Below are positions 1 to 56,198 of a DNA stretch of 64,000 nucleotides, piece after piece. The position numbers and the translations under genes are program-made. The stretch comes from Candidatus Endobugula sertula (GTDB taxonomy: Bacteria; Pseudomonadota; Gammaproteobacteria; Pseudomonadales; Cellvibrionaceae), in the NCBI GenBank assembly GCA_001723645.1, contig MDLC01000011.1, forward strand, positions 1 through 64,000, given 5' to 3'. How positions within the stretch are numbered: the first letter of the stretch is position 1; each line of letters opens with the position of its first letter. The notes beneath the pieces were generated by a model. The model ran no database searches. It was not told where the DNA came from and saw only the letters and a program-made list of their open reading frames with translations.

Positions 1-141
1 GAACATTCTGAATGCTTAGGAAGAAAAAGCGATCATGTTTAATCGTTGGCGGTGATCATCTTCAGTGGAATACGCAATCAATCGCAGGCTCTCATGTTAG
101 AATCAATATATTAATGAGTGTAGAGGCGAAGCTCCAACGAT

Positions 142-1497
142 ATGAAAGTAACAGTTTTTGGTATTGGGTATGTGGGTTTGGTTCAAGCAGCGGTATTATC
201 TGACGTTGGTCATCAAGTCTGTTGCGTTGATATTGATGAAGGTAAAATCGAAAAACTCAAACAAGGTCTTATTCCTATCTATGAGCCAGGATTGGCGCCG
301 TTGGTTCAATCCAACTACCAAGCTGGTAGGATTCATTTTACCACCAAGGCTCAGGAAGGTGTCAATTTCGGTGATATACAGTTTATTGCGGTAGGAACGC
401 CGCCAGATGAAGACGGCTCAGCTGACTTGAAATATGTACTGGCAGTGGCAGAAACTATCGCGACTTATATGGAATCCAGTAAAATCATTATTGATAAATC
501 CACTGTACCAGTGGGTACAGCCGACAAAGTGAAATCTTGTGTTGCTAGTGTTTTGGCAGAGCGTCAAAAAGAGGTGTCTTTTCATGTGGTTTCTAATCCA
601 GAGTTCCTAAAAGAAGGAGCTGCCGTTAATGATTGTATGCGACCCGATAGAATCGTTATTGGTGCAGATTCCCCTGCTGTTGAGAAAACCATGCGTGAAC
701 TCTATGAACCCTTTAATCGTAACCATGATCGAATGATCTTCATGGATATTCGCAGTGCTGAGTTAACCAAATACGCAGCCAATTGCATGTTGGCTACAAA
801 AATCAGTTTTATGAATGAAATGTCTAATTTAGCTGAAAAGTTAGGTGCTGATATTGAAATGGTTCGACAAGGCATTGGCTCTGATGAGCGTATAGGTTAT
901 CACTTTATATATCCTGGCTGCGGTTATGGCGGCTCGTGTTTTCCTAAAGATGTGCAAGCCCTGATTAGGACTTCCGAGGCAATAGCATATGATGCCCCTC
1001 TGCTTAAAGCCGTCGAGAGTGTTAACTGTCATCAAAAACAAAAACTATTTGACTATATTGATACACATTTTTCAGGCGATATTGCAGGCAAAACCTTTGC
1101 CTTATGGGGACTCTCTTTCAAGCCCAAAACAGATGATATGCGAGAAGCTTCCAGCCGCGTCATTATGGAATCTTTATGGCGTGTCGGAGCAAAAGTACAG
1201 GCTTATGATCCTGAAGCCATGGAAGAATGTTTAAGAATTTATGGTAAACGTGATGACCTATTATTGGCAGACAGTAAAGAAGCGGCCTTGCATCATGCAG
1301 ATGCCTTGGTGATATGCACCGAATGGCAACATTTTAGAGCCCCCGACTTCGACGAAATTAAGCGTGTTATGACTTTCCCGGTTATTTTTGATGGAAGAAA
1401 TCTCTATAGCCCTCAACGAATGGAAGAAAAAGGCATCCTCTATTATGCCATTGGAAGAGGACACTCCATTCTTAGGCGTCAGTCGTCACCTGTCTAA
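142..1497 (+). CDS. ugd: UDP-glucose 6-dehydrogenase
   Basis: This enzyme oxidises UDP-glucose to UDP-glucuronate with two NAD+, giving a precursor for exopolysaccharide or lipid A decoration in the cytoplasm. The 451-residue protein starts with the Rossmann motif GIGYVG (residues 7-12). It also has VPVGT (122-126), NPEFLKEG near 153, and the catalytic motif [12 protein letters not shown] with the nucleophile Cys266. Length and motif order fit the UDP-glucose/GDP-mannose dehydrogenase family. The ATG lies about 10 bases after a weak GAGGCGAAG. No polysaccharide genes follow it; it is closed by a shared terminator, so any partners would lie upstream of the window. Confidence 0.95.
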
Positions 1498-7977: not shown

Positions 7978-8961
7978 ATGAACCTATTTGATGGCTTTGG
8001 CCGCTCTATCAGTTACCTTCGGCTTTCTGTCACCGACCGATGTGACTTTCGCTGTGTTTACTGCATGTCTAAAGATATGACGTTCCTACCTCGTCATCGA
8101 ATACTGAGCATTGAAGAAATGACATTAGTCGCCCAAGCTTTCAATGAATTGGGTGTTAGCAAAATTCGTATTACCGGTGGTGAACCCTTAATTCGCTCTA
8201 ATATCTCCCTATTATTTAAAAATTTGAGGGAGTTACCACTCAAAGAAATCACCCTGACCACTAATGGTTCACAGCTTATAAAGCATGTCCGTAATTTAGT
8301 CGATGTTGGGGTAAAGCGTATTAATGTCAGCCTAGATAGCCTACAGGCAGATAAATTTAAAACTTTAACCCGCACAGGTAAGTTAAAAACCGTACTAAAA
8401 GGTATTGATGCCGCCTTAGAAGCTGGGCTAAAAATCAAGATAAATAGCGTCATTTTAAAGCATCGCAATATGGATGAAGTTAGAGATTTAGTGGGCTTCG
8501 CCATTGGGCGGCAAATGGATATCAGCTTTATTGAAGAAATGCCACTAGGCGTTATTAATGAACACCAACGTGAGAAGGAGTTTGTCAGTAGCGCCGATCT
8601 ACGCGAACATATTGCCGAAGTGTACCCCTTAACCCCTTCCACCAAAAATACTGGCGGACCCTCCCGGTACTGGCAGGTAGAAAATACATCCAACTATATC
8701 GGTTTTATTTCACCTCACAGCGATAACTTCTGTTCCGGCTGTAACCGTGTAAGAGTAACGACTGAAGGTCTGTTATTGCTTTGCTTAGGTAATGAACACA
8801 ACCTAGATCTGCGCCAGATTATTCGTCACAATCCCAATGATATCGAAGGCTTAAAACAACACATCGTAGCGGCTATGCAAAACAAGCCCGAAAAGCACCA
8901 TTTCGACCTTAATGGTAACAAGCCACAAATTGTACGCTTTATGAATATGACAGGCGGCTAA
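7978..8961 (+). CDS. moaA: GTP 3',8-cyclase MoaA
   Basis: A radical SAM enzyme that starts molybdenum cofactor synthesis by converting GTP to the 3',8-cyclo intermediate. The 327 residues carry the N-terminal 4Fe-4S motif Cys22-x3-Cys26-x2-Cys29, the GGEPL SAM-binding strand (near 64), and the second cluster motif C-x2-C-x13-C near the C-terminus (CSGCNRVRV). The protein ends in the conserved Gly-Gly tail that MoaA needs for catalysis. No other moa or mob gene is adjacent, so the partner MoaC must be elsewhere. Confidence 0.93.
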   Translation: MNLFDGFGRSISYLRLSVTDRCDFRCVYCMSKDMTFLPRHRILSIEEMTLVAQAFNELGVSKIRITGGEPLIRSNISLLFKNLRELPLKEITLTTNGSQLIKHVRNLVDVGVKRINVSLDSLQADKFKTLTRTGKLKTVLKGIDAALEAGLKIKINSVILKHRNMDEVRDLVGFAIGRQMDISFIEEMPLGVINEHQREKEFVSSADLREHIAEVYPLTPSTKNTGGPSRYWQVENTSNYIGFISPHSDNFCSGCNRVRVTTEGLLLLCLGNEHNLDLRQIIRHNPNDIEGLKQHIVAAMQNKPEKHHFDLNGNKPQIVRFMNMTGG

Positions 8962-9180: not shown

Positions 9181-10512
9181 TTATACTAAATGTGTTAACT
9201 CTACGGCAGAAACTGGACGCTTCAATGCATGCGGATTAATACCTTCGCGAAGTGCGATTAGCAAACCCGCAGCTTCAGCATAACTATTCACGATGTGGAT
9301 ATTTTCCTTGCTCAAGTCAATGCCGATACGTTCAGGTGTCACATTGAAGATAGTGCTGTTGTCTCTCACCAAAATCACCGGTATATTAAGCTCCATTGCC
9401 GTAAAAAAAGGAATGTTTCCAACGACTGATTCAGGCATAACCACAGCACTAACATCACTAACACTAATTGAAGAGTCGTTTGTGTGCTCCATCAAATTTT
9501 CGATAGGTAACACCTTAGGTGACTGACTTAAACCACGCACCATTGAACAAAGAAAGGCACTGGAAATTAATTCGGCACCATCCCTCGGATCACCCAGAGT
9601 GCCAAACATGGTATGGCCCGCTTCGAGTAATAAAGGAGAGTGGGCAGCCGTTACCGGATAAAAACTTGTCGTTAAATGCGTTAAAATAGCTTCTGCCGCT
9701 CCCCAGGGGTTAGGTATCGGTTGACCCGCGTAATACGCATTACGCACAGCATCAGATACGTCTAGACTGGTCACAAGTCCAACGGCTTGAACGGCAGTAT
9801 CACAGACTACATCTATACCAGCATAAAGCTCATCCAGTTCGCCGTACTCTCCCGAAGCGTGACCAAAATCTGAAAAAGTACATGTTGTTCTAATTGGTTT
9901 ATCAGTGACAACGACTGGATTGATATCAACACCGGCAACGGTACGCATCGCGTTAACCGCATTTTGTACATTGCGCAAAAAATTTTCTTCTCTGGGTTTC
10001 TCAACAACTAAGCCCACTGTTTGTTGGCACACTGGCAACAACCCTAGTTGCCCAAGCATAAACCGACAAATAAGATTCCCTTCAACGTATTGTATGTTAT
10101 CTGAAGCAAAATACAGGTCTGACGCAGTCACTGTGTTTGGATTCACTACTAAATAGTCACAAACTGATGCCAACAAATTCATCGATGGTGTTGCGTCACC
10201 GGCAAAGCCACCGATCTCAGCACGAACACCGGTAGGAATAATACTCACTACAACCTGAGTGTTCGAGCTTTGATGCCGTAACTGTCTGGGAGGCGATAAT
10301 AATGATGGCCAAATGGGTTTTCGATCACCAATTAAAAAGCTTGCCTCCACAGTGATTAACTCGTCATTAGTATCGATCACAATAATCCTGATTGGAAATC
10401 CCTGACAAGCTTGTTCTGCAATGCGCTGAGATATGTGAGTCCAGTTTCGTTGATGTGCTGGACAGTGAATGTTAAATTGCCATGTTCTAACACGTTGATT
10501 TAAAGATGCCAT
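9181..10512 (-). CDS. DUF3326-family protein
   Basis: A protein of 443 residues whose core follows the DUF3326 pattern as I know it from cyanobacteria and plants: IPTGVRAEIGGFAGDA (91-106), HPN-like VNPNTV, YVEGNLICRF, VTDKPI, then ILTHL and the C-terminal SYAEAAGLLIALREGINP. The first 85 residues are extra relative to that core. The function is unknown. The open frame runs further upstream, but ATG 10512 is chosen because GGGAG lies seven bases before it and the upstream part belongs to another, frameshifted cupin gene 43 bases away. It is likely co-transcribed with that gene. A ring-opening amidohydrolase (AtzD type) was considered and fits less well. Confidence 0.68.
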   Translation of the reverse strand: MASLNQRVRTWQFNIHCPAHQRNWTHISQRIAEQACQGFPIRIIVIDTNDELITVEASFLIGDRKPIWPSLLSPPRQLRHQSSNTQVVVSIIPTGVRAEIGGFAGDATPSMNLLASVCDYLVVNPNTVTASDLYFASDNIQYVEGNLICRFMLGQLGLLPVCQQTVGLVVEKPREENFLRNVQNAVNAMRTVAGVDINPVVVTDKPIRTTCTFSDFGHASGEYGELDELYAGIDVVCDTAVQAVGLVTSLDVSDAVRNAYYAGQPIPNPWGAAEAILTHLTTSFYPVTAAHSPLLLEAGHTMFGTLGDPRDGAELISSAFLCSMVRGLSQSPKVLPIENLMEHTNDSSISVSDVSAVVMPESVVGNIPFFTAMELNIPVILVRDNSTIFNVTPERIGIDLSKENIHIVNSYAEAAGLLIALREGINPHALKRPVSAVELTHLV

Positions 10513-10555
10513 AATTATCTCCCGACCGTTCGCACTCTGATTCTGTAAACTGAGG

Positions 10556-10855
10556 CTAATCAGCATGCGCCCAATACACATGCGGTTCACTATCACCCAT
10601 ATTTTTAAAGGTATGTTCTGTTCCAGATACAATAAACACATGCTCACCAACATCCGAAAAAAACATTGATCATTCATGTTAACTTCAAGACACCCACTGA
10701 TCAGAAAAATATATTCGTCACCAAAGCCCCCGCCATCTTGCCAAAATTCACTAGGTTTAGACACATACTTTTCAACCGTAAACCCTTATTGACGCTACTC
10801 TTGTAGACACCCATTGACTTTTATTTGAACTGCCAACATCACTATTTTTCTCCAC
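10556..10855 (-). pseudogene. Decayed small cupin-domain gene
   Basis: Three frames read in turn give one plausible protein of about 98 residues. It starts from GTG 10855 (VEKNSDVGSSNKS...STRVASIRVYG), shifts near 10775 into EFWQDGGGFGDEYIFLISG and CLEVNMNDQCFF, then shifts again in a run of seven A/T at 10657-10663 into SDVGEHVFIVSGTEHTFKN and ends HVYWAHAD. The order GDEY..LISGCLEV...VFIVSGTEHTFKN matches the two conserved cupin motifs, including a GTEH metal-site-like His. It ends 43 bases before the DUF3326 start, suggesting a former two-gene operon. Either two indels killed it or the sequence has errors here. Confidence 0.6.
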
Positions 10856-12094: not shown

Positions 12095-13045
12095 TCAATA
12101 TTCATACAATGTCTCTTCACCTTGCGGGCGAGTTTTAAATCTTCTGTGTACCCATAAGTATTCTTCAGGGTTTTCACGAATACAATGCTCAAAATGCTGA
12201 TTTAACCTATTAAGATCTTTGTTACTATCCTCTGAAGGAAAGTGTTCAAACGCAGGCAAAAAACAGATTTCATAACCGCTATAATCCGGCAATCTCCGAT
12301 AAGTGATCGCAACGACAGGGACTTCGGAGATTGCCGCCAATCTTGGCGGGGCGGCAACCGTAGCTGCAGAAACACCAAACCAAGGAACAAACTGACTGAC
12401 TTTAGGACCGTAATCTTGATCTGCGGCATACCATAACCAAGCCCCCTTTTTCATGGCTTTAACCATACCACGAACATTGTTACGGTGAATCACTTCTGAA
12501 TTGGAGTTATGACGCTCGCGACCACGACGCTGAATAAAATCATAGACAGGGTTATTATGTGGCCGATAAGACATAGACATATCAAACAACCGATTAATCG
12601 CCACATTGGTAATTTCGAGTGTATTAAAATGCATGGCAATAATCAGTGCACCCTGAAGATGCCCACTACTACCCTGCTGCTGGATAGATCGCCAGTGCTG
12701 TTCCCCCTTAATCACAAAACGTTTTCGTAATCGCCAATAGGGCATAAACCAAGCCATCCCTGTTTCAAATAAAGCAATACCATTGGTTTCAAAATGCTTC
12801 TTGACCAAAGTCTGTTTTTTTTTATTAGACCATTCGGGAAAACACAAGTCGATATTGCGTTCAGCCACGTAACGACGAGTTTTCAAACTATGATATAGCA
12901 AACGCCCAAGACACTGACCCAATACCATCTGTAAACGAAAGGGTAACTGAGCTAATAAGAACAACAACATCATCCACACCCAGGTTAACCAGTAACGTGG
13001 GTACAATAATGAAAAAGAAAAACGGGAAGATTTCATTGAAGCCAT
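12095..13045 (-). CDS. lpxL: LpxL/HtrB-type Kdo2-lipid A acyltransferase
   Basis: A membrane-anchored late lipid A acyltransferase of 316 residues that adds a secondary acyl chain to Kdo2-lipid IVA. An N-terminal hydrophobic segment (about 18-40) anchors it. The HX4E catalytic pair is His139 and Glu144 (HFNTLE). The later motifs PHNNPVYD, AADQDYGPK and the C-terminal WVHRRFKTRPQGE are characteristic of the family. It stands alone between the response regulator and fabV. Whether it prefers laurate or another chain cannot be judged, and it could also be one of the LpxM/P paralogues. Confidence 0.85.
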   Translation of the reverse strand: MASMKSSRFSFSLLYPRYWLTWVWMMLLFLLAQLPFRLQMVLGQCLGRLLYHSLKTRRYVAERNIDLCFPEWSNKKKQTLVKKHFETNGIALFETGMAWFMPYWRLRKRFVIKGEQHWRSIQQQGSSGHLQGALIIAMHFNTLEITNVAINRLFDMSMSYRPHNNPVYDFIQRRGRERHNSNSEVIHRNNVRGMVKAMKKGAWLWYAADQDYGPKVSQFVPWFGVSAATVAAPPRLAAISEVPVVAITYRRLPDYSGYEICFLPAFEHFPSEDSNKDLNRLNQHFEHCIRENPEEYLWVHRRFKTRPQGEETLYEY

Positions 13046-13130
13046 GGGGTGGTTAATACGTTGACAATACCATCATAAGTCATAGACCACCCACTTAATA
13101 TTGCCAATCCTGAAAAATATAAACAAGGAG

Positions 13131-14318
13131 TTACAAAAAGTTCGCTTCAACCAAGGGCATCGTCTCAGCTTCATAGTCAATACCCTCTACTCCAAAACCA
13201 AACAAGCGTAAGAATTCCGTTTGATACAGAGAAAAATCTGATAATTCATGTAAATTTTCAGTGGTAACCTGCGACCAAATAACTTCTACTTTAGTTTGAA
13301 CGTCGGGGTTCAGTTCCAACTCATCAACACGGAAGCGGTTAGCATCATCCACACGTGGGTTATCAGAATAAAGGCACTCAGTAAATAAACGCTGTAGCTG
13401 CTCAATACAACCTTCATGTGTGCCTTCTGCCTGCATCACTTTAAACAGAATAGACAGGTATAGAGGCATAACAGGAATAGCTGAACTCGCCTGAGTCACT
13501 ACCGCTTTTAACACACAGACATGGGCTGAACCATTCAAACCCGATAATTGTTCACACAACTCACCTGCCGCATGATCAAGGTCTTCCTTGGCTTTACCGA
13601 TCGTTGCCTGTCCATAGATTGGCCAGGTTAATTTTTCACCTAAATACGTATAAGCAACCGTTTTCACACCGTCAGCAAGTACATCAGCCTTTACTAATGC
13701 ATCTATCCATAATTGCCAGTCCTCACCACCCATCACTTTTACCGTACTGGCAATTTCTTCGTCGTTGGCAGGTTCAACCGTTATCTCACCAACACGCTGA
13801 GTGTCTGTATTTAGGTCTTTTGCTGTATAGCTATGACCAATCGGTTTCAACGTCGATGTATACACATCCCCTGAAACGGGATCCTGTCTACGAGGTGATG
13901 CCAAACTATAGACTACTAAATCAATTTTCCCCATATTGGCTTTAATTTCCTCAATCACCTTTTCCTTACAGCCTGTGGAAAACGCATCACCATTAACACT
14001 TTTAGCATATAGACCCGCTGCATTGGCAGCTTGATCCAACGCGACCGCATTATAGTATCCCGCTGAGGCAGTTTTGCGTTCGGTAGGCGGTTTTTCAAAA
14101 AACACTCCCAAGGTATTGGCACCGTAACCAAAGACTGCAGTAATACGGGAAGCCAAACCATAACCTGTCGAAGACCCAACAATTAATACATTCTTAGGAC
14201 CGTCGGCATAAGGCCCTTTTGACTTTATATACTCAATTTGCTGTTGAACATTCGCTGCACAACCTTGAGGGTGCGCATTAATACAGATAAAACCACGGAC
14301 CTTGGGTGAAATAATCAT
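13131..14318 (-). CDS. fabV: trans-2-enoyl-ACP/CoA reductase FabV
   Basis: A single-polypeptide NADH-dependent enoyl reductase of 395 residues for the last step of fatty acid elongation; the family is known for triclosan tolerance. The cofactor motif GSSTGYG is at about 48-54. The active-site signature Y-x8-K is Tyr235 and Lys244, a wider spacing than the Y-x6-K of FabI. SLASPRRQDP and the C-terminal region GFGVEGIDY also match FabV. It appears monocistronic. No fabI is present in this window. Confidence 0.94.
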   Translation of the reverse strand: MIISPKVRGFICINAHPQGCAANVQQQIEYIKSKGPYADGPKNVLIVGSSTGYGLASRITAVFGYGANTLGVFFEKPPTERKTASAGYYNAVALDQAANAAGLYAKSVNGDAFSTGCKEKVIEEIKANMGKIDLVVYSLASPRRQDPVSGDVYTSTLKPIGHSYTAKDLNTDTQRVGEITVEPANDEEIASTVKVMGGEDWQLWIDALVKADVLADGVKTVAYTYLGEKLTWPIYGQATIGKAKEDLDHAAGELCEQLSGLNGSAHVCVLKAVVTQASSAIPVMPLYLSILFKVMQAEGTHEGCIEQLQRLFTECLYSDNPRVDDANRFRVDELELNPDVQTKVEVIWSQVTTENLHELSDFSLYQTEFLRLFGFGVEGIDYEAETMPLVEANFL

Positions 14319-14577
14319 AAAAAAACCTAAATTCTAAAAGTGTGAGTTCTAAGACTAAGAATGGCCAAAAAGTGGCTATTATAACAGATGGGATTTTATT
14401 GGCGATAAGGACTGATTAATATAACCCGGAAGGTTGATAGCATTGCAGAGAATAGTGAACCTATTGGCAAAATGAATAACAACATCAGGACAATAACACA
14501 ACCGTTTTTATAATAACATTTTATCACTAATTAGCTCTATAATGAGGCGCTTTATCATCTCAGTTAAGTTGCTATTC

Positions 14578-15174
14578 ATGATGCCAAATATTAATCCCAA
14601 CCTCTTTAAACTCCGCTATGTCACATCTAAAGCTTGGGTAGATACCATATTGGCTGACTTCAACAGTTTTCTAAATGACCACGCCCAAGCAGAGAAAAAG
14701 GCCTCAGGAATGGCTATATCAATGCTATCCCACTACCCGGATCGCCCTGACCTGATAAGAGCGATGATTGATTTATCCATTGAGGAATTGGCGCATTTTC
14801 GGGAAGTGATCAAATTAATGCAGGCACAAGGCTTGCAATTAGGCAGTGATAAAAAAGATCCTTACATCAATGCTATTCGCTCTCATATCCGCAAAGGGAG
14901 TGAAAAATATATGCTAGATCGGCTATTGACTGCAGCCATTATTGAAGCTAGGGGATGTGAACGTTTTGCCTTGATTGCCCGATATCATAGTGCCCCTGAA
15001 ATGAAAAATTTTTACCAGCAAATTGCTGACTCCGAAACCAAACACCACTTACTTTTTATTGATTTAGCCACTTTATATTTTACTATTCCTGTCATTGAAC
15101 AACGACTCGATCAACTATTAAGCATTGAAGCTAATATTATAGAAAAGTTACCTTTACGCGCGGCATTACATTAA
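14578..15174 (+). CDS. miaE: tRNA-(ms2io6A) hydroxylase MiaE
   Basis: A diiron monooxygenase of the ferritin-like fold that hydroxylates the isopentenyl group of ms2i6A37 in tRNA. Probable iron ligands are visible in EELAHF (ExxH), EARGCERF and ETKHH (ExxHH), the usual two-half arrangement. The ATG at 14578 (198 residues) is preferred over one at 14542, because the earlier ATG overlaps a TATAAT at 14538-14543 that would be its own -10 box. Eleven bases separate it from the glycosyltransferase gene that follows, so the two are probably co-transcribed. Confidence 0.9.
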   Translation: MMPNINPNLFKLRYVTSKAWVDTILADFNSFLNDHAQAEKKASGMAISMLSHYPDRPDLIRAMIDLSIEELAHFREVIKLMQAQGLQLGSDKKDPYINAIRSHIRKGSEKYMLDRLLTAAIIEARGCERFALIARYHSAPEMKNFYQQIADSETKHHLLFIDLATLYFTIPVIEQRLDQLLSIEANIIEKLPLRAALH

Positions 15175-15185
15175 AGACAATCCAC

Positions 15186-16415
15186 ATGTTAACAGATAAA
15201 AAATGGCACCACGACTTATTCAGGGTTATCAAGCAATACAGTGCCAAATATGCTGAAAAAGAAGCGCTTGAGATTACGCCATATATTCCTAAAAAAATCT
15301 ATGAAAACAGTATTATTATCCCAGCTTATAATGAAAGTGATCATTTTTTTCAACGTATTAAAAACAGCCCTTTAGCCCAGAGCAAACTCTTGCTTATTGT
15401 GATCATCAATCAACCGGATAGCGATGACGACATCCGTATTAACCAACAGCTATGGGATCGTTTTATTGAATCAAATAACACCATTAACTACAGCCATTTT
15501 CACCACTGGCTGACAATAGACAACAGCTTACTGGATGTGTTACTCATCAATCGATTTACGGAAAAAATTCCCCATCAACAGGGCGTTGGACTAGCACGAA
15601 AAATTGGCGGCGATATTATCTGCAAACTGATTCAGTCAGGATGCTTGAATAATTACTGGATCAATACTACTGACTGCGATGCTCACCTTCCCGACAATTA
15701 CTTTTCCGTACTGTACGCTAACACCACCCAGCAACACAGTGCTGCCATTTACCCCTATATTCATCAACATTCAAACGACACGCAGCTACTGGAAGCCACT
15801 CGACATTACGAACAATGGCTGAACCATTATGTGGAGCAGCTAAAAAAAGCAGGCTCACCCTATGCTTATCATACACTCGGCAGTTGTATGGCAAGTAATT
15901 CATTATATTACTGTCAGACACGCGGATTTCCCAAACGGGCAGCAGGAGAGGATTTCTATCTACTCAATAAGCTAACAAAACTGGGCAAGGTCATCACACT
16001 CAACAATACTGAAATCACACTGGATGCACGTGTATCTGACCGTGTACCTTTTGGCACTGGCCCCGCCGTTAAAAAAATACTGGCTATGGACAATCCGGAA
16101 GAAGAGCACTTATATTATCACCCTCAATGTTTTAAAGAACTGTCTTGCTTACTGGAAGGATTCTCAACACTCTTCACCTACAGGGAGTCACCTCAAATAT
16201 GGTTAAGGCACTTAAGCCCACCGTTGCAAATGGCCTTAAACACATTAGGATTTACAAAATTATTAATTCATATCAACAAACAAACCCTTTCATCTGAGCA
16301 ATGTTATCAACATTGTCATGACTGGCTTGATGGCTTTCGTACATTAAAGCTCATTCACTTATTGGAAGAAAACTACCCACGCCTGCCTTTCAGTAAACTC
16401 TCATTGTATCAATAG
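15186..16415 (+). CDS. GT-A type (family 2-like) glycosyltransferase, unknown acceptor
   Basis: A soluble 409-residue protein with a GT-A nucleotide-sugar fold: IIIPAYNES at 43-51, GVGLARKIGGD at 133-143, a DxD-type metal site Asp163-Cys-Asp165 in TTDCDAHLP, and GFPKRAAGEDFYLLNKL (about 250-266) as the acceptor-side acidic motif. No membrane segment is evident, so it acts on a soluble or peripheral acceptor. It follows miaE by 11 bases and no polysaccharide genes are nearby. The substrate is unknown. The pairing with a tRNA-modification gene is suggestive only. Confidence 0.75.
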   Translation: MLTDKKWHHDLFRVIKQYSAKYAEKEALEITPYIPKKIYENSIIIPAYNESDHFFQRIKNSPLAQSKLLLIVIINQPDSDDDIRINQQLWDRFIESNNTINYSHFHHWLTIDNSLLDVLLINRFTEKIPHQQGVGLARKIGGDIICKLIQSGCLNNYWINTTDCDAHLPDNYFSVLYANTTQQHSAAIYPYIHQHSNDTQLLEATRHYEQWLNHYVEQLKKAGSPYAYHTLGSCMASNSLYYCQTRGFPKRAAGEDFYLLNKLTKLGKVITLNNTEITLDARVSDRVPFGTGPAVKKILAMDNPEEEHLYYHPQCFKELSCLLEGFSTLFTYRESPQIWLRHLSPPLQMALNTLGFTKLLIHINKQTLSSEQCYQHCHDWLDGFRTLKLIHLLEENYPRLPFSKLSLYQ

Positions 16416-16452
16416 AAAAAACCGATAAAGGGAAATAACAAATAAAAGGCCA

Positions 16453-17016
16453 TTAATTCAGTATCGAATCCTTCCAAAACTTGGTTCCTTTCACTGTCGC
16501 TTGTAGGGCCAAACCACTTTTTGTAAAGGTGTAGACTGTTACATCACCATAATAAGCCTCCCCTTCTATAGAGCCACCCTTATTGGCCGCTTTAACCGTA
16601 GCATCCGCATTCCCACCAAAAGTCCAGCCATTATCAATAAAATGTTCCAACGATGATATGTTATGGAATACCATCACGATGCGATAGTCTTTGGCGCCCA
16701 AGCCTAAACCCACACCACCTTCTGCCATATTCATGTAAGTGTATTTACCTGTCTTTAAATTTTTAACCACACCGTACCCAGTGCCTGCAGAAACTACAAA
16801 TAAATTAATATTGGCATTACTAAACGTAGCGTAACCCACGGCAGATTTTATTTGCGCGCGAGTATCCGGCTTTTCACGATAGAGTTGCTTTAAAATATCA
16901 TCGCTCATACCAAGAATAGCTTCTCGCTTTTCTTGCTTGGTACCTGAACCTATAGAAGCACAAGCACTCACGATGATACTGATCAATATGAGAGGAATAA
17001 GGCGAACCAATAGCAT
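16453..17016 (-). CDS. SYLF (YSC84-like) domain lipoprotein
   Basis: A 187-residue protein with a lipoprotein signal peptide; the lipobox is VSAC with Cys19 as the lipidated residue. The rest is a SYLF/YSC84 domain, a lipid-binding fold: SAVGYATFSNANINLFVVS, GTGYGVVKN, GGVGLGLGAKDYRIVMVFHN. It probably sits in the outer or inner membrane facing the periplasm. The cellular role of bacterial SYLF lipoproteins is not settled. It converges with the glycosyltransferase gene 37 bases away. Confidence 0.85.
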   Translation of the reverse strand: MLLVRLIPLILISIIVSACASIGSGTKQEKREAILGMSDDILKQLYREKPDTRAQIKSAVGYATFSNANINLFVVSAGTGYGVVKNLKTGKYTYMNMAEGGVGLGLGAKDYRIVMVFHNISSLEHFIDNGWTFGGNADATVKAANKGGSIEGEAYYGDVTVYTFTKSGLALQATVKGTKFWKDSILN

Positions 17017-17153
17017 AATAAACCTTTTTAATCAACAAACTGAGCATACTATATCTATTTATTTTATAAATAAGTACTATTCTAGTCATATTTGCGATTA
17101 AGTTCTCATGAAGTATAAAAAAAATGATAACTGGTTTGGTTTACGTGCGGTCG

Positions 17154-54940: not shown

Positions 54941-54961
54941 CTGCAGATTAAATAACTTATG
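54941..54961 (+). repeat. Duplicated leader, copy 1
   Basis: The stretch beginning CTGCAGATTAAATAACTT runs into the ATG of the first HTH regulator and recurs exactly before the second at 55794-55814. It marks the duplication and may carry shared control signals. Confidence 0.75.
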
Positions 54962-55345
54962 AGTATTAGTGGCATGAAACATCCTAAATTTGCCAAACGC
55001 TTTCATCAAGCTGTTGAACTTGCCGGAGTTGAAAGTACTCAACAAGAGCTGTCCAAACTACTCGGAGTCAGTGAAGTCATGGTTTGGAGCTACCAAAATG
55101 GGGAAAAATTACCTCGAATGGCTATGGCAATTAAAATGTCGGATGCATTTGGCGTGACGGTTAACTGGCTATTACGAGGCGTAGGTGATCCAATTGATCG
55201 AACACCAAGCAGTAAACCTTCAAAACGCACCTCAAGGCCACTAAGAAAATCAACGCAAGCAATTGTTGACTTTGTGGAAAAGCTCACTGAACATGAACGG
55301 AAAAAAGCGCTAGGCATTCTCGAACTTACTTTCCAGAAAAAATAA
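54959..55345 (+). CDS. Helix-turn-helix (Cro/CI-like) regulator, copy 1
   Basis: A 128-residue protein with an N-terminal HTH (about 20-75): STQQELSKLLGVSEVMVWSY then GEKLPRMAMAIKMSDAFGVT and VNWLLRGVGDP. A basic Ser/Pro linker and a short C-terminal helix (IVDFVEKLTEHERKKALGIL) follow. It may start at the inner MKHPKFAKRF. It is similar to the gene at 55812 over the whole length (roughly 70% identical by eye), so the two are recent duplicates. No toxin, phage or restriction gene is adjacent. The target is unknown. Confidence 0.85.
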   Translation: MSISGMKHPKFAKRFHQAVELAGVESTQQELSKLLGVSEVMVWSYQNGEKLPRMAMAIKMSDAFGVTVNWLLRGVGDPIDRTPSSKPSKRTSRPLRKSTQAIVDFVEKLTEHERKKALGILELTFQKK

Positions 55346-55793: not shown

Positions 55794-55814
55794 CTGCAGA
55801 TTAAATAACTTATG
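55794..55814 (+). repeat. Duplicated leader, copy 2
   Basis: Exact recurrence of the 21-base leader at 54941-54961, 853 bases downstream, ending in the ATG of the second HTH gene. Confidence 0.75.
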
Positions 55815-56198
55815 GATAAATTGGGGCCCATGAAGCACCCTAAGTTTGCCAAGAGATTTAATCAAGCTGTTAGCCTAGCTGGAGTTAAAAATACTCAGAG
55901 AGCGCTCTCCAAATTACTTGGGGTAAGTGAGGTGATGATTTGGAGTTACAAAAATGGCGAGAAACTGCCAAGAATGGCCATGGCCGTTAAAATAGCTGAT
56001 GAACTGGGTGTTTCGGTCAATTGGCTACTACAAGGTATCGGAGACCCTATTAAGCAAGCCACAGAAGGTAGTAGCACCAAATCTAAACCACGGAGAAAAT
56101 CAGTCCAAGCCATTGTCGATTTTACAGAAAAGCTTAGCGAACATGAACGCAGAAAGGCATTAAAAATCCTTAATATTACTTTCCAGAAGAACGTGTAA
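55812..56198 (+). CDS. Helix-turn-helix (Cro/CI-like) regulator, copy 2
   Basis: A 128-residue paralogue of the preceding regulator with the same layout: NTQRALSKLLGVSEVMIWSY in the HTH, GEKLPRMAMAVKIADELGVS then VNWLLQGIGDP, a basic linker, and IVDFTEKLSEHERRKALKIL at the C-terminus. The differences are concentrated in the linker and a few helix positions, so the DNA targets may overlap. It converges on gltD. It could repress itself or its sister through the shared leader. Confidence 0.85.
   Translation: MDKLGPMKHPKFAKRFNQAVSLAGVKNTQRALSKLLGVSEVMIWSYKNGEKLPRMAMAVKIADELGVSVNWLLQGIGDPIKQATEGSSTKSKPRRKSVQAIVDFTEKLSEHERRKALKILNITFQKNV

Follow-up and report, generated by a model that had tools for sequence, protein, structure and literature searches.

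How does a long DUF3326 gene come to lie beside the remains of a cupin gene in a bacterium whose relatives nearly all lack the family, and what might its product do there? The locus lies in a stretch of 64,000 nucleotides, the whole of which was analysed and is called the window below. DUF3326 is a Pfam family whose function has yet to be assigned. Of 5.39 million open full-text papers, two name it; in the passages concerned it is listed, beside the ferredoxin fed3 in cyanobacteria in one and in a potato gene table in the other. A first-pass annotation of the locus had named the family, reported some 85 extra N-terminal residues and a broken cupin gene, and proposed that a conserved cupin-DUF3326 pair elsewhere would indicate a small-molecule enzyme.

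The DUF3326 gene and the dead cupin gene upstream

The DUF3326 gene (9181..10512, minus strand) is an open frame whose translation is a protein of 443 aa (P0001) of the fused, or long, form. Residues 88-430 match the Pfam model PF11805, covering its positions 2-336 of 337, with 259.6 bits (E 5e-77), exceeding the curated cut-off of 25 bits, and PF11805 is the only family in Pfam that P0001 matches at E up to 1. The family assignment is thus confirmed, and so is the count of about 85 extra residues, as the PF11805 domain begins only after residues 1-85. The DUF3326 domain proper (residues 86-443; 9184..10257, minus strand) is predicted to form two alpha/beta lobes, as delimited by structure models and VIA-align rows. 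The frame stays open as far as 10764, but only by running into the dead cupin gene, and the ATG at 10512 was taken as the start.

The dead cupin gene (10556..10839, minus strand) was recognised with a custom profile of six cyanobacterial (clade-B) cupins and by a search of the window organism's own genome. It comprises two adjoining pieces, the first matching positions 3-60 of the 103-position profile (E 1.6e-8) with two stops within, the second positions 57-96 (E 5e-5). The genome-wide search, made with one of these six cupins, returned the same two pieces, at 10657-10827 (one TAG, one TAA) and 10562-10669. Its one further row, on contig C20, is weak (14 bits, E 0.13, 25% identity), and with this query no convincing intact copy was found anywhere in the genome. 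Against the Pfam family Cupin_2 (PF07883; cut-off 27.2 bits) the second piece scores 15.9 bits and the first gives no match, and in a database of the proteins predicted from the 80 loci described below, the second piece matches a Prochloron cupin (31 residues, 42% identical; E 2e-4). Judged by its sequence, the remnant belongs to the cupin family of the cyanobacterial cluster described below. A chance look-alike was dropped as an explanation, since a six-frame translation of the whole 64-kb window gives the custom profile no match at E up to 1 beyond the two adjoining pieces. The reported spacing could be read directly from the sequence, the cupin stop codon ending 43 bases ahead of the DUF3326 start. 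The gene is also broken, as annotated, but one frameshift plus two nonsense codons, both in frame, fit better than the two frameshifts claimed for it.

Rarity of the gene among relatives

Across four overlapping, partial genome samples, the only full-length PF11805 gene is that of the window. Among 58 genomes of relatives and among 369 genomes of the class, one has the family, in both cases the window genome. It occurs in 2 of 398 genomes of the phylum, the other case being a remnant of 70 positions interrupted by stops, and in 2 of 390 of the order, where the other is a piece of 56 positions lying at the end of a contig. Two other searched species of the genus, one of them 89% complete, lack PF11805. 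A DUF3326 match is reported for the cyanobacterium Synechococcus elongatus. Long forms in other Pseudomonadota were detected with an alignment query in a bin titled Gammaproteobacteria (L041, 33% identity) and another titled Betaproteobacteria (L044, 31%). The moaA-like gene next to DUF3326 (7978-8961) has relatives of 58-64% identity in five of nine related genomes; in the five stretches compared, none of nine other window proteins lies beside the moaA-like relative, and no empty site was readable. The 70-position DUF3326 remnant (L003 1501-1710), found in a genome of the window's class (G726), has two stops and stands next to archease- and RtcB-like genes as judged by eye.

The closest relatives found lie in a cyanobacterial gene cluster

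Used alone, P0001 retrieved no relative from genome contigs, viral contigs, plasmids or phages and nothing convincing from the PDB sequences (best E 0.18). An alignment query (A1) was needed, consisting of P0001 and three probe sequences confirmed against Pfam. The 80 loci analysed stand highest in similarity to P0001 among at least 482 relatives, and a sample ranked in this way leans to long forms.

Among the matches listed, the closest relatives are 12 cyanobacterial loci (L005-L016) from Calothrix, Prochloron, Moorena, Okeania, Anabaena, Rhizonema and Trichodesmium, with DUF3326 proteins 52-58% identical to that of the window; each of the 12 matches starts no later than residue seven. A tree of 73 of the 81 rows unites the window protein with the ten cyanobacterial ones included (support 100/100), a sign of transfer, for which a phylogeny had been suggested as the test. 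Left out of this tree were L016, L063, L066, L067, L069, L071 and L073 by name and L015 for its stops, while L006, L009, L077 and L080 were entered as their longest stop-free part. The placement of the window protein inside the clade is unsure (84/51) and its branch length is 1.02; the tree tool warns of long branches and an unsettled bootstrap. Among the 64 aligned DUF3326 members, including the window protein, 29 columns are identical throughout. The window protein is altered at 14 of the 77 columns conserved at ≥85% in the other rows, against 5-7 changes at the same columns in eight clade members. Because of its long branch and these altered columns, the window protein may be drifting.

The neighbours of these relatives, for which Pfam names were assigned on representative proteins, supply the small-molecule context that had been anticipated. 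An OKR_DC-like gene, encoding an Orn/Lys/Arg-decarboxylase-like PLP enzyme, follows DUF3326 in 11 of the 12 loci; the contig of L010 ends about 1 kb past DUF3326 and that of L016 inside it. A Methyltransf_25 methyltransferase is present in 7/12 loci and a CmcI-type methyltransferase in 7/12, and seven loci combine DUF3326, the PLP enzyme and the two methyltransferases. An amine oxidase of the same family as that on contig C45 (see below) is encoded in three loci, and PhyH, TauD and Rieske oxygenases are present in some. The open full-text literature searched gave no description of this cluster (DUF3326, OKR_DC-like, Methyltransf_25, CmcI-type methyltransferase and cupin), which marks a pathway without a description found there. 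Moorena and Okeania are genera known for natural products.

A cupin lies within the same gene run in six of the 12 loci. The idea of a conserved cupin-DUF3326 pair survives only to this extent: the cupin is about 2.7-5.9 kb downstream of DUF3326 in those six loci and never adjacent, and the conserved neighbour is the decarboxylase-family gene. There is no cupin in L005, L012 and L013, where 8 kb are visible on both sides, or in L007 within the 6.1 kb visible downstream. Because the first three lack it, the cupin seems dispensable; it is an accessory of the cyanobacterial cluster, and the decarboxylase is the conserved partner. In the cyanobacterial clusters the cupin stands downstream of DUF3326, whereas in the window it is dead and upstream.

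DUF3326 itself contains in-frame stops in Prochloron (L006 7986-9311), Okeania SIO3B5 (L009 6325-7638) and Trichodesmium (L015 7107-8420; more than one), and the Trichodesmium cupin is likewise split over two matches. The stops in these three DUF3326 genes represent decay or sequencing errors.

A second locus on another contig

No decarboxylase-family gene stands beside the window DUF3326 gene; an OKR_DC-like gene is on contig C45, which holds the single OKR_DC_1 match of the genome. Four open frames are found there: a CmcI-type methyltransferase (C45 12059-12748, minus strand), a second methyltransferase (12755-13435, minus strand), an OKR_DC-like enzyme with an S-x-H-K lysine motif (14245-15627, plus strand) and a flavin amine oxidase (15631-17142, plus strand). 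The region C45 12059-17142 corresponds to L090 8060-13143. When the proteins predicted from the 80 loci were searched, the best matches of all four lay in the cyanobacterial cluster loci, with identities of 44-48% for the CmcI type, 36-41% for the other methyltransferase, 32-37% for the OKR_DC type and 37-39% for the amine oxidase; the lysine motif recurs in 11 cyanobacterial homologues. Of the 58 genomes of relatives, the window genome alone has the CmcI-type enzyme; in the order, it was hit in 5 of 390 genomes, the four others at 24-28% identity. Transposase-like fragments were noticed by eye downstream of the C45 gene set.

The cyanobacterial cluster, as in Moorena, Prochloron, Okeania, Anabaena and Trichodesmium, thus holds in one place a DUF3326 gene with the N-terminal domain, at the identity to the window protein given above, and its partners, whereas in the window organism the homologues of the other genes are in the same genome but split over two contigs. 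Most likely, this genome acquired a cyanobacterial-type gene set that is now split (window 9181-10839; C45 12059-17142) and whose cupin is dead. We infer a transfer of the gene set; because an unrelated bacterium holds the same set, split in two, the finding suggests that the set crossed phyla.

The N-terminal domain and its likely stand-alone counterpart

The N-terminal domain of P0001 (residues 1-85; 10258..10512, minus strand) was delimited by profile comparison and a structure model. As had been suggested, its structure was predicted, here within the whole protein, and the model has a beta-alpha-beta-beta order (strands 7-16, 39-48 and 52-61, helix 24-33). The 80 loci were sorted by hand into 59 long ones, with this domain fused, and 21 short ones; L055 and L057 were counted as long though contig ends hide the place of the domain. 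The first-pass annotation was right that the domain is present, but it is not peculiar to the window gene, being fused in the wider family and encoded separately in cyanobacterial short loci. In 14 of the 21 short loci, which are all the cyanobacterial loci of the short clade proper, a gene for a protein of 55-61 aa lies at most 340 bases upstream of the DUF3326 domain. The other seven (Melainabacteria-type loci and L051, which is titled Cyanobacteria bacterium yet groups with them) have no such small gene at E up to 0.01.

An hhalign comparison of 28 fused N-domains, the window's first, with the 14 small proteins gave a probability of 93 and an E of 3.2e-7, with a P-x-R-x-x-x-T motif in register between the two sets. 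In Pfam, one fused N-domain other than the window's and two small proteins were scanned and gave no match. Aligned with 27 others, the window N-domain keeps P40, R42 and E56, and has isoleucine at the near-invariant T46. Going by this profile match, the stand-alone protein is likely a homologue of the fused N-domain: short cyanobacterial DUF3326 proteins, unlike that of the window, carry no fused N-domain and would have the equivalent part from a separate upstream gene. Fusion or fission is the simplest reading of how the domain and the small gene are linked, and the 'extra' domain looks like the usual partner of the DUF3326 family. This likely equivalence indicates which two parts to express together.

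Decarboxylase neighbours across the wider family

A decarboxylase-family gene (counted at E ≤1e-40) is found nearby on the same strand in 54 of the 59 long loci vs 0 of the 21 short ones, among the best 80 of at least 482 relatives. The partner is NspC-like and upstream in 26 loci, SpeD-like and upstream in 17, and OKR_DC-like and downstream in 11. All but two of the 54 partners lie within 500 bp of DUF3326; of the OKR_DC-like ones, nine do so downstream and two stand at 1.3 kb (L014) and 3.7 kb (L007). Five long loci have no partner, and three of these (L016, L055, L057) are cut by a contig end. No decarboxylase was found around the long DUF3326 genes of L037 (795-2066; 794 bases visible upstream) and L062 (7893-9266; 7.9 kb visible upstream, 223 bases downstream), which are likely exceptions to the neighbour rule. 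A distant OKR_DC homologue lies about 4 kb from the short DUF3326 of L067, on the other strand (26%, E 1.9e-32). The pairs from Rhodospirillales, Chloroflexota, Planctomycetota and other groups resemble the window gene in having the N-domain fused to DUF3326; they differ in identity, about 29-37% to the window protein, and in an NspC-like or SpeD-like upstream partner. Short cyanobacterial DUF3326 proteins belong to the same PF11805 family, of which the window protein matches 335 of 337 positions, but have no decarboxylase neighbour.

NspC, SpeD and OKR_DC are families unrelated in fold. In the portions of the published work drawn on here, they converge on the decarboxylation of polyamine precursors, as ornithine, arginine or lysine decarboxylases (ODC/ADC/LDC; PMC10407285, PMC8503589). 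The corresponding passages of a 2023 JBC paper (PMC10407285) describe SpeD homologues turned ornithine or arginine decarboxylases, Gln, Thr, Phe and Tyr marking the ornithine decarboxylases and a proline separating true AdoMet decarboxylases from arginine decarboxylases. At the marker positions, placed as the text of that paper was taken to mean them, the SpeD-like neighbours have Gln in 12/17, Thr in 17/17 and Tyr in 16/17. All 17 are without the Trp-Pro present in the genome's own canonical SpeD (HTWPE), in line with the SpeD homologues described in those passages as ornithine or arginine decarboxylases (PMC10407285). Where the own SpeD has glutamate, the neighbours have threonine before serine, and the later histidine is kept. 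At E 1e-5, NCBIfam has no model for the L038 SpeD-like protein, and the L036 NspC-like protein scores 273 bits against an nspC cut-off of 409. With Pfam scores of 70-75 bits and no NCBIfam decarboxylase cut-off reached, the OKR_DC-like enzymes may carry out other PLP chemistry.

Further families near DUF3326 are GSP_synth (nine loci, upstream), a glutamine-synthetase-like enzyme (three loci) and an AMP-binding enzyme (L056), all of which are able to join amines to acids. PspA is present in L040 and has relatives in L036 and L061, and some Rhodospirillales loci combine DUF3326 with GSP_synth and PspA. According to the relevant parts of PMC11237479, PspA operons include genes resembling spermidine synthase or, in variants, genes for AdoMet decarboxylase. 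Some long DUF3326 genes thus share, through GSP_synth and PspA as assigned by Pfam, a neighbourhood like that of the operons of PspA, GSP-like ATP-grasp, DUF350 and DUF1190 described there; DUF3326 is unmentioned in those parts, and by eye the open reading frames flanking it in the window resemble none of these operons' proteins.

Two other arrangements were noticed by eye among short loci. The short DUF3326 follows directly after a hypoxanthine phosphoribosyltransferase-like gene (cluster 14) in the Melainabacteria-type loci L051, L065, L069, L071, L076 and L078, and a CPBP-type membrane protease-like gene (cluster 7) follows the short cyanobacterial DUF3326 in 11 loci (L063, L066, L067, L072-L074, L077, L079-L082).

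Predicted structure

The whole-protein model has a pLDDT of 89.3 and a pTM of 0.92, the domain-only model 88.7 and 0.89, and both contain the two alpha/beta lobes. With Foldseek, the whole protein gave one match at E ≤0.001, an Argonaute with TM 0.17, and the DUF3326 domain gave none. With VIA-align, the domain matched UDP-GlcNAc 2-epimerase (1v4v; Z 9.2, rmsd 3.1, 124 aligned), tied at the top with LacI (Z 9.2), and MGD1 (4x1t; Z 8.2), with lumazine-synthase and Argonaute rows scoring about equal; the guidance of this tool gives a best Z of 7-8 as typical for models without a clear match. On the domain, the rows cover 1..344 and about 51..252. Comparison of the whole protein put MGD1 (6.3) first, followed by SpnG (6.0) and the accessory secretory protein 6lnw (6.0). 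Among the families listed there, neither Foldseek nor VIA-align named a fold family confidently, and we read the models as a common arrangement that hints weakly at a GT-B-like lobe.

A proposed role in amine making and its rivals

The reading that we favour, and hold to be rather probable, is that the window gene is the long DUF3326 of a cyanobacterial-type set, acquired and then split, with its cupin dead, and that it acts with a decarboxylase in making an amine. As to the chemistry, the order of steps and the decarboxylase substrate, we would propose that the decarboxylase turns a basic amino acid, of which ornithine, lysine and arginine are the probable ones, into an amine, and that the N-domain and the DUF3326 domain, as one enzyme, convert this amine or, in the reverse order, supply the substrate of the decarboxylase. 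In the window organism and its cyanobacterial relatives, the product would then be methylated and oxidised by the methyltransferases and oxidases. We propose amines because what the partner families share, as far as known, is that they decarboxylate ornithine or related basic amino acids, and the presence near some DUF3326 genes of the GSP_synth and glutamine-synthetase-like families, able to act on amines, supports this. Against it, DUF3326 and the PLP enzyme lie apart in the window organism, and the window gene is thus itself an exception to the neighbour rule.

For the DUF3326 reaction, the two highest-rated rivals are a polyamine-type condensation and a nucleotide-dependent activation. As a polyamine-building enzyme, DUF3326 would condense or alkylate a diamine like homospermidine or spermidine synthase, replacing SpeE, HSS or CASDH beside three interchangeable decarboxylases. 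This would suit the meeting of the partner families in polyamine-precursor decarboxylation (PMC10407285, PMC8503589, in the portions cited above) and the Rhodospirillales loci with GSP_synth and PspA, given the spermidine-synthase-like genes of PspA operons (PMC11237479, likewise). However, P0001 matches no spermidine or homospermidine synthase in Pfam at E up to 1 (a result that bears on sequence and not on reaction), lysine is missing among the 29 invariant columns, and the short loci lack the decarboxylase; we regard this rival as unlikely. A little less likely still is a nucleotide- or sugar-nucleotide-using GT-B-like enzyme that would, for example, glycosylate or activate an amine. The epimerase and MGD1 rows of the modelled domain and the MGD1, SpnG and 6lnw rows of the whole protein point that way, whereas the epimerase is level with LacI, the lumazine-synthase and Argonaute rows are about equal, the scores are near those usual without a clear match and Foldseek has nothing for the domain at E ≤0.001.

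Two other rivals concern the fate of the genes in the window organism. DUF3326 and the dead cupin might be a drifting relic whose function is lost there, as the adjoining dead gene, the long branch, the altered conserved columns and the partners on another contig could indicate; but the frame is open across 443 codons, the four C45 partner genes are open too, and the cupin seems dispensable in any case, which makes a relic improbable in our judgement. It is equally doubtful that the window and C45 loci arrived separately and do not work together. Their identities to the cyanobacterial set do differ (DUF3326 52-58%, PLP enzyme 32-37%), and a DNA comparison of the two loci found no shared match; against this, among the 58 genomes of relatives it is one and the same that has DUF3326 and the CmcI-type enzyme, and the two are joined with the PLP enzyme and the other methyltransferase in seven of the 12 cyanobacterial loci.

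Returning to the amine-making reading, a bolder version is possible, and we offer it tentatively, as something we would not expect to hold in full. DUF3326 with its small N-domain partner may be a new amine-forming enzyme that was paired independently with three unrelated decarboxylases, is made by two genes in cyanobacteria and fused elsewhere, and belongs in part to polyamine or membrane-stress operons; in some cyanobacteria and the window organism, the fused form would make an undescribed methylated amine natural product. The decarboxylase link provides a first testable substrate hypothesis for the DUF3326 family.

Elsewhere in the window, at 54959-55345 and 55812-56198, two very similar helix-turn-helix repressor-like proteins of 128 aa are encoded in tandem, about 470 bases apart, as judged by eye.
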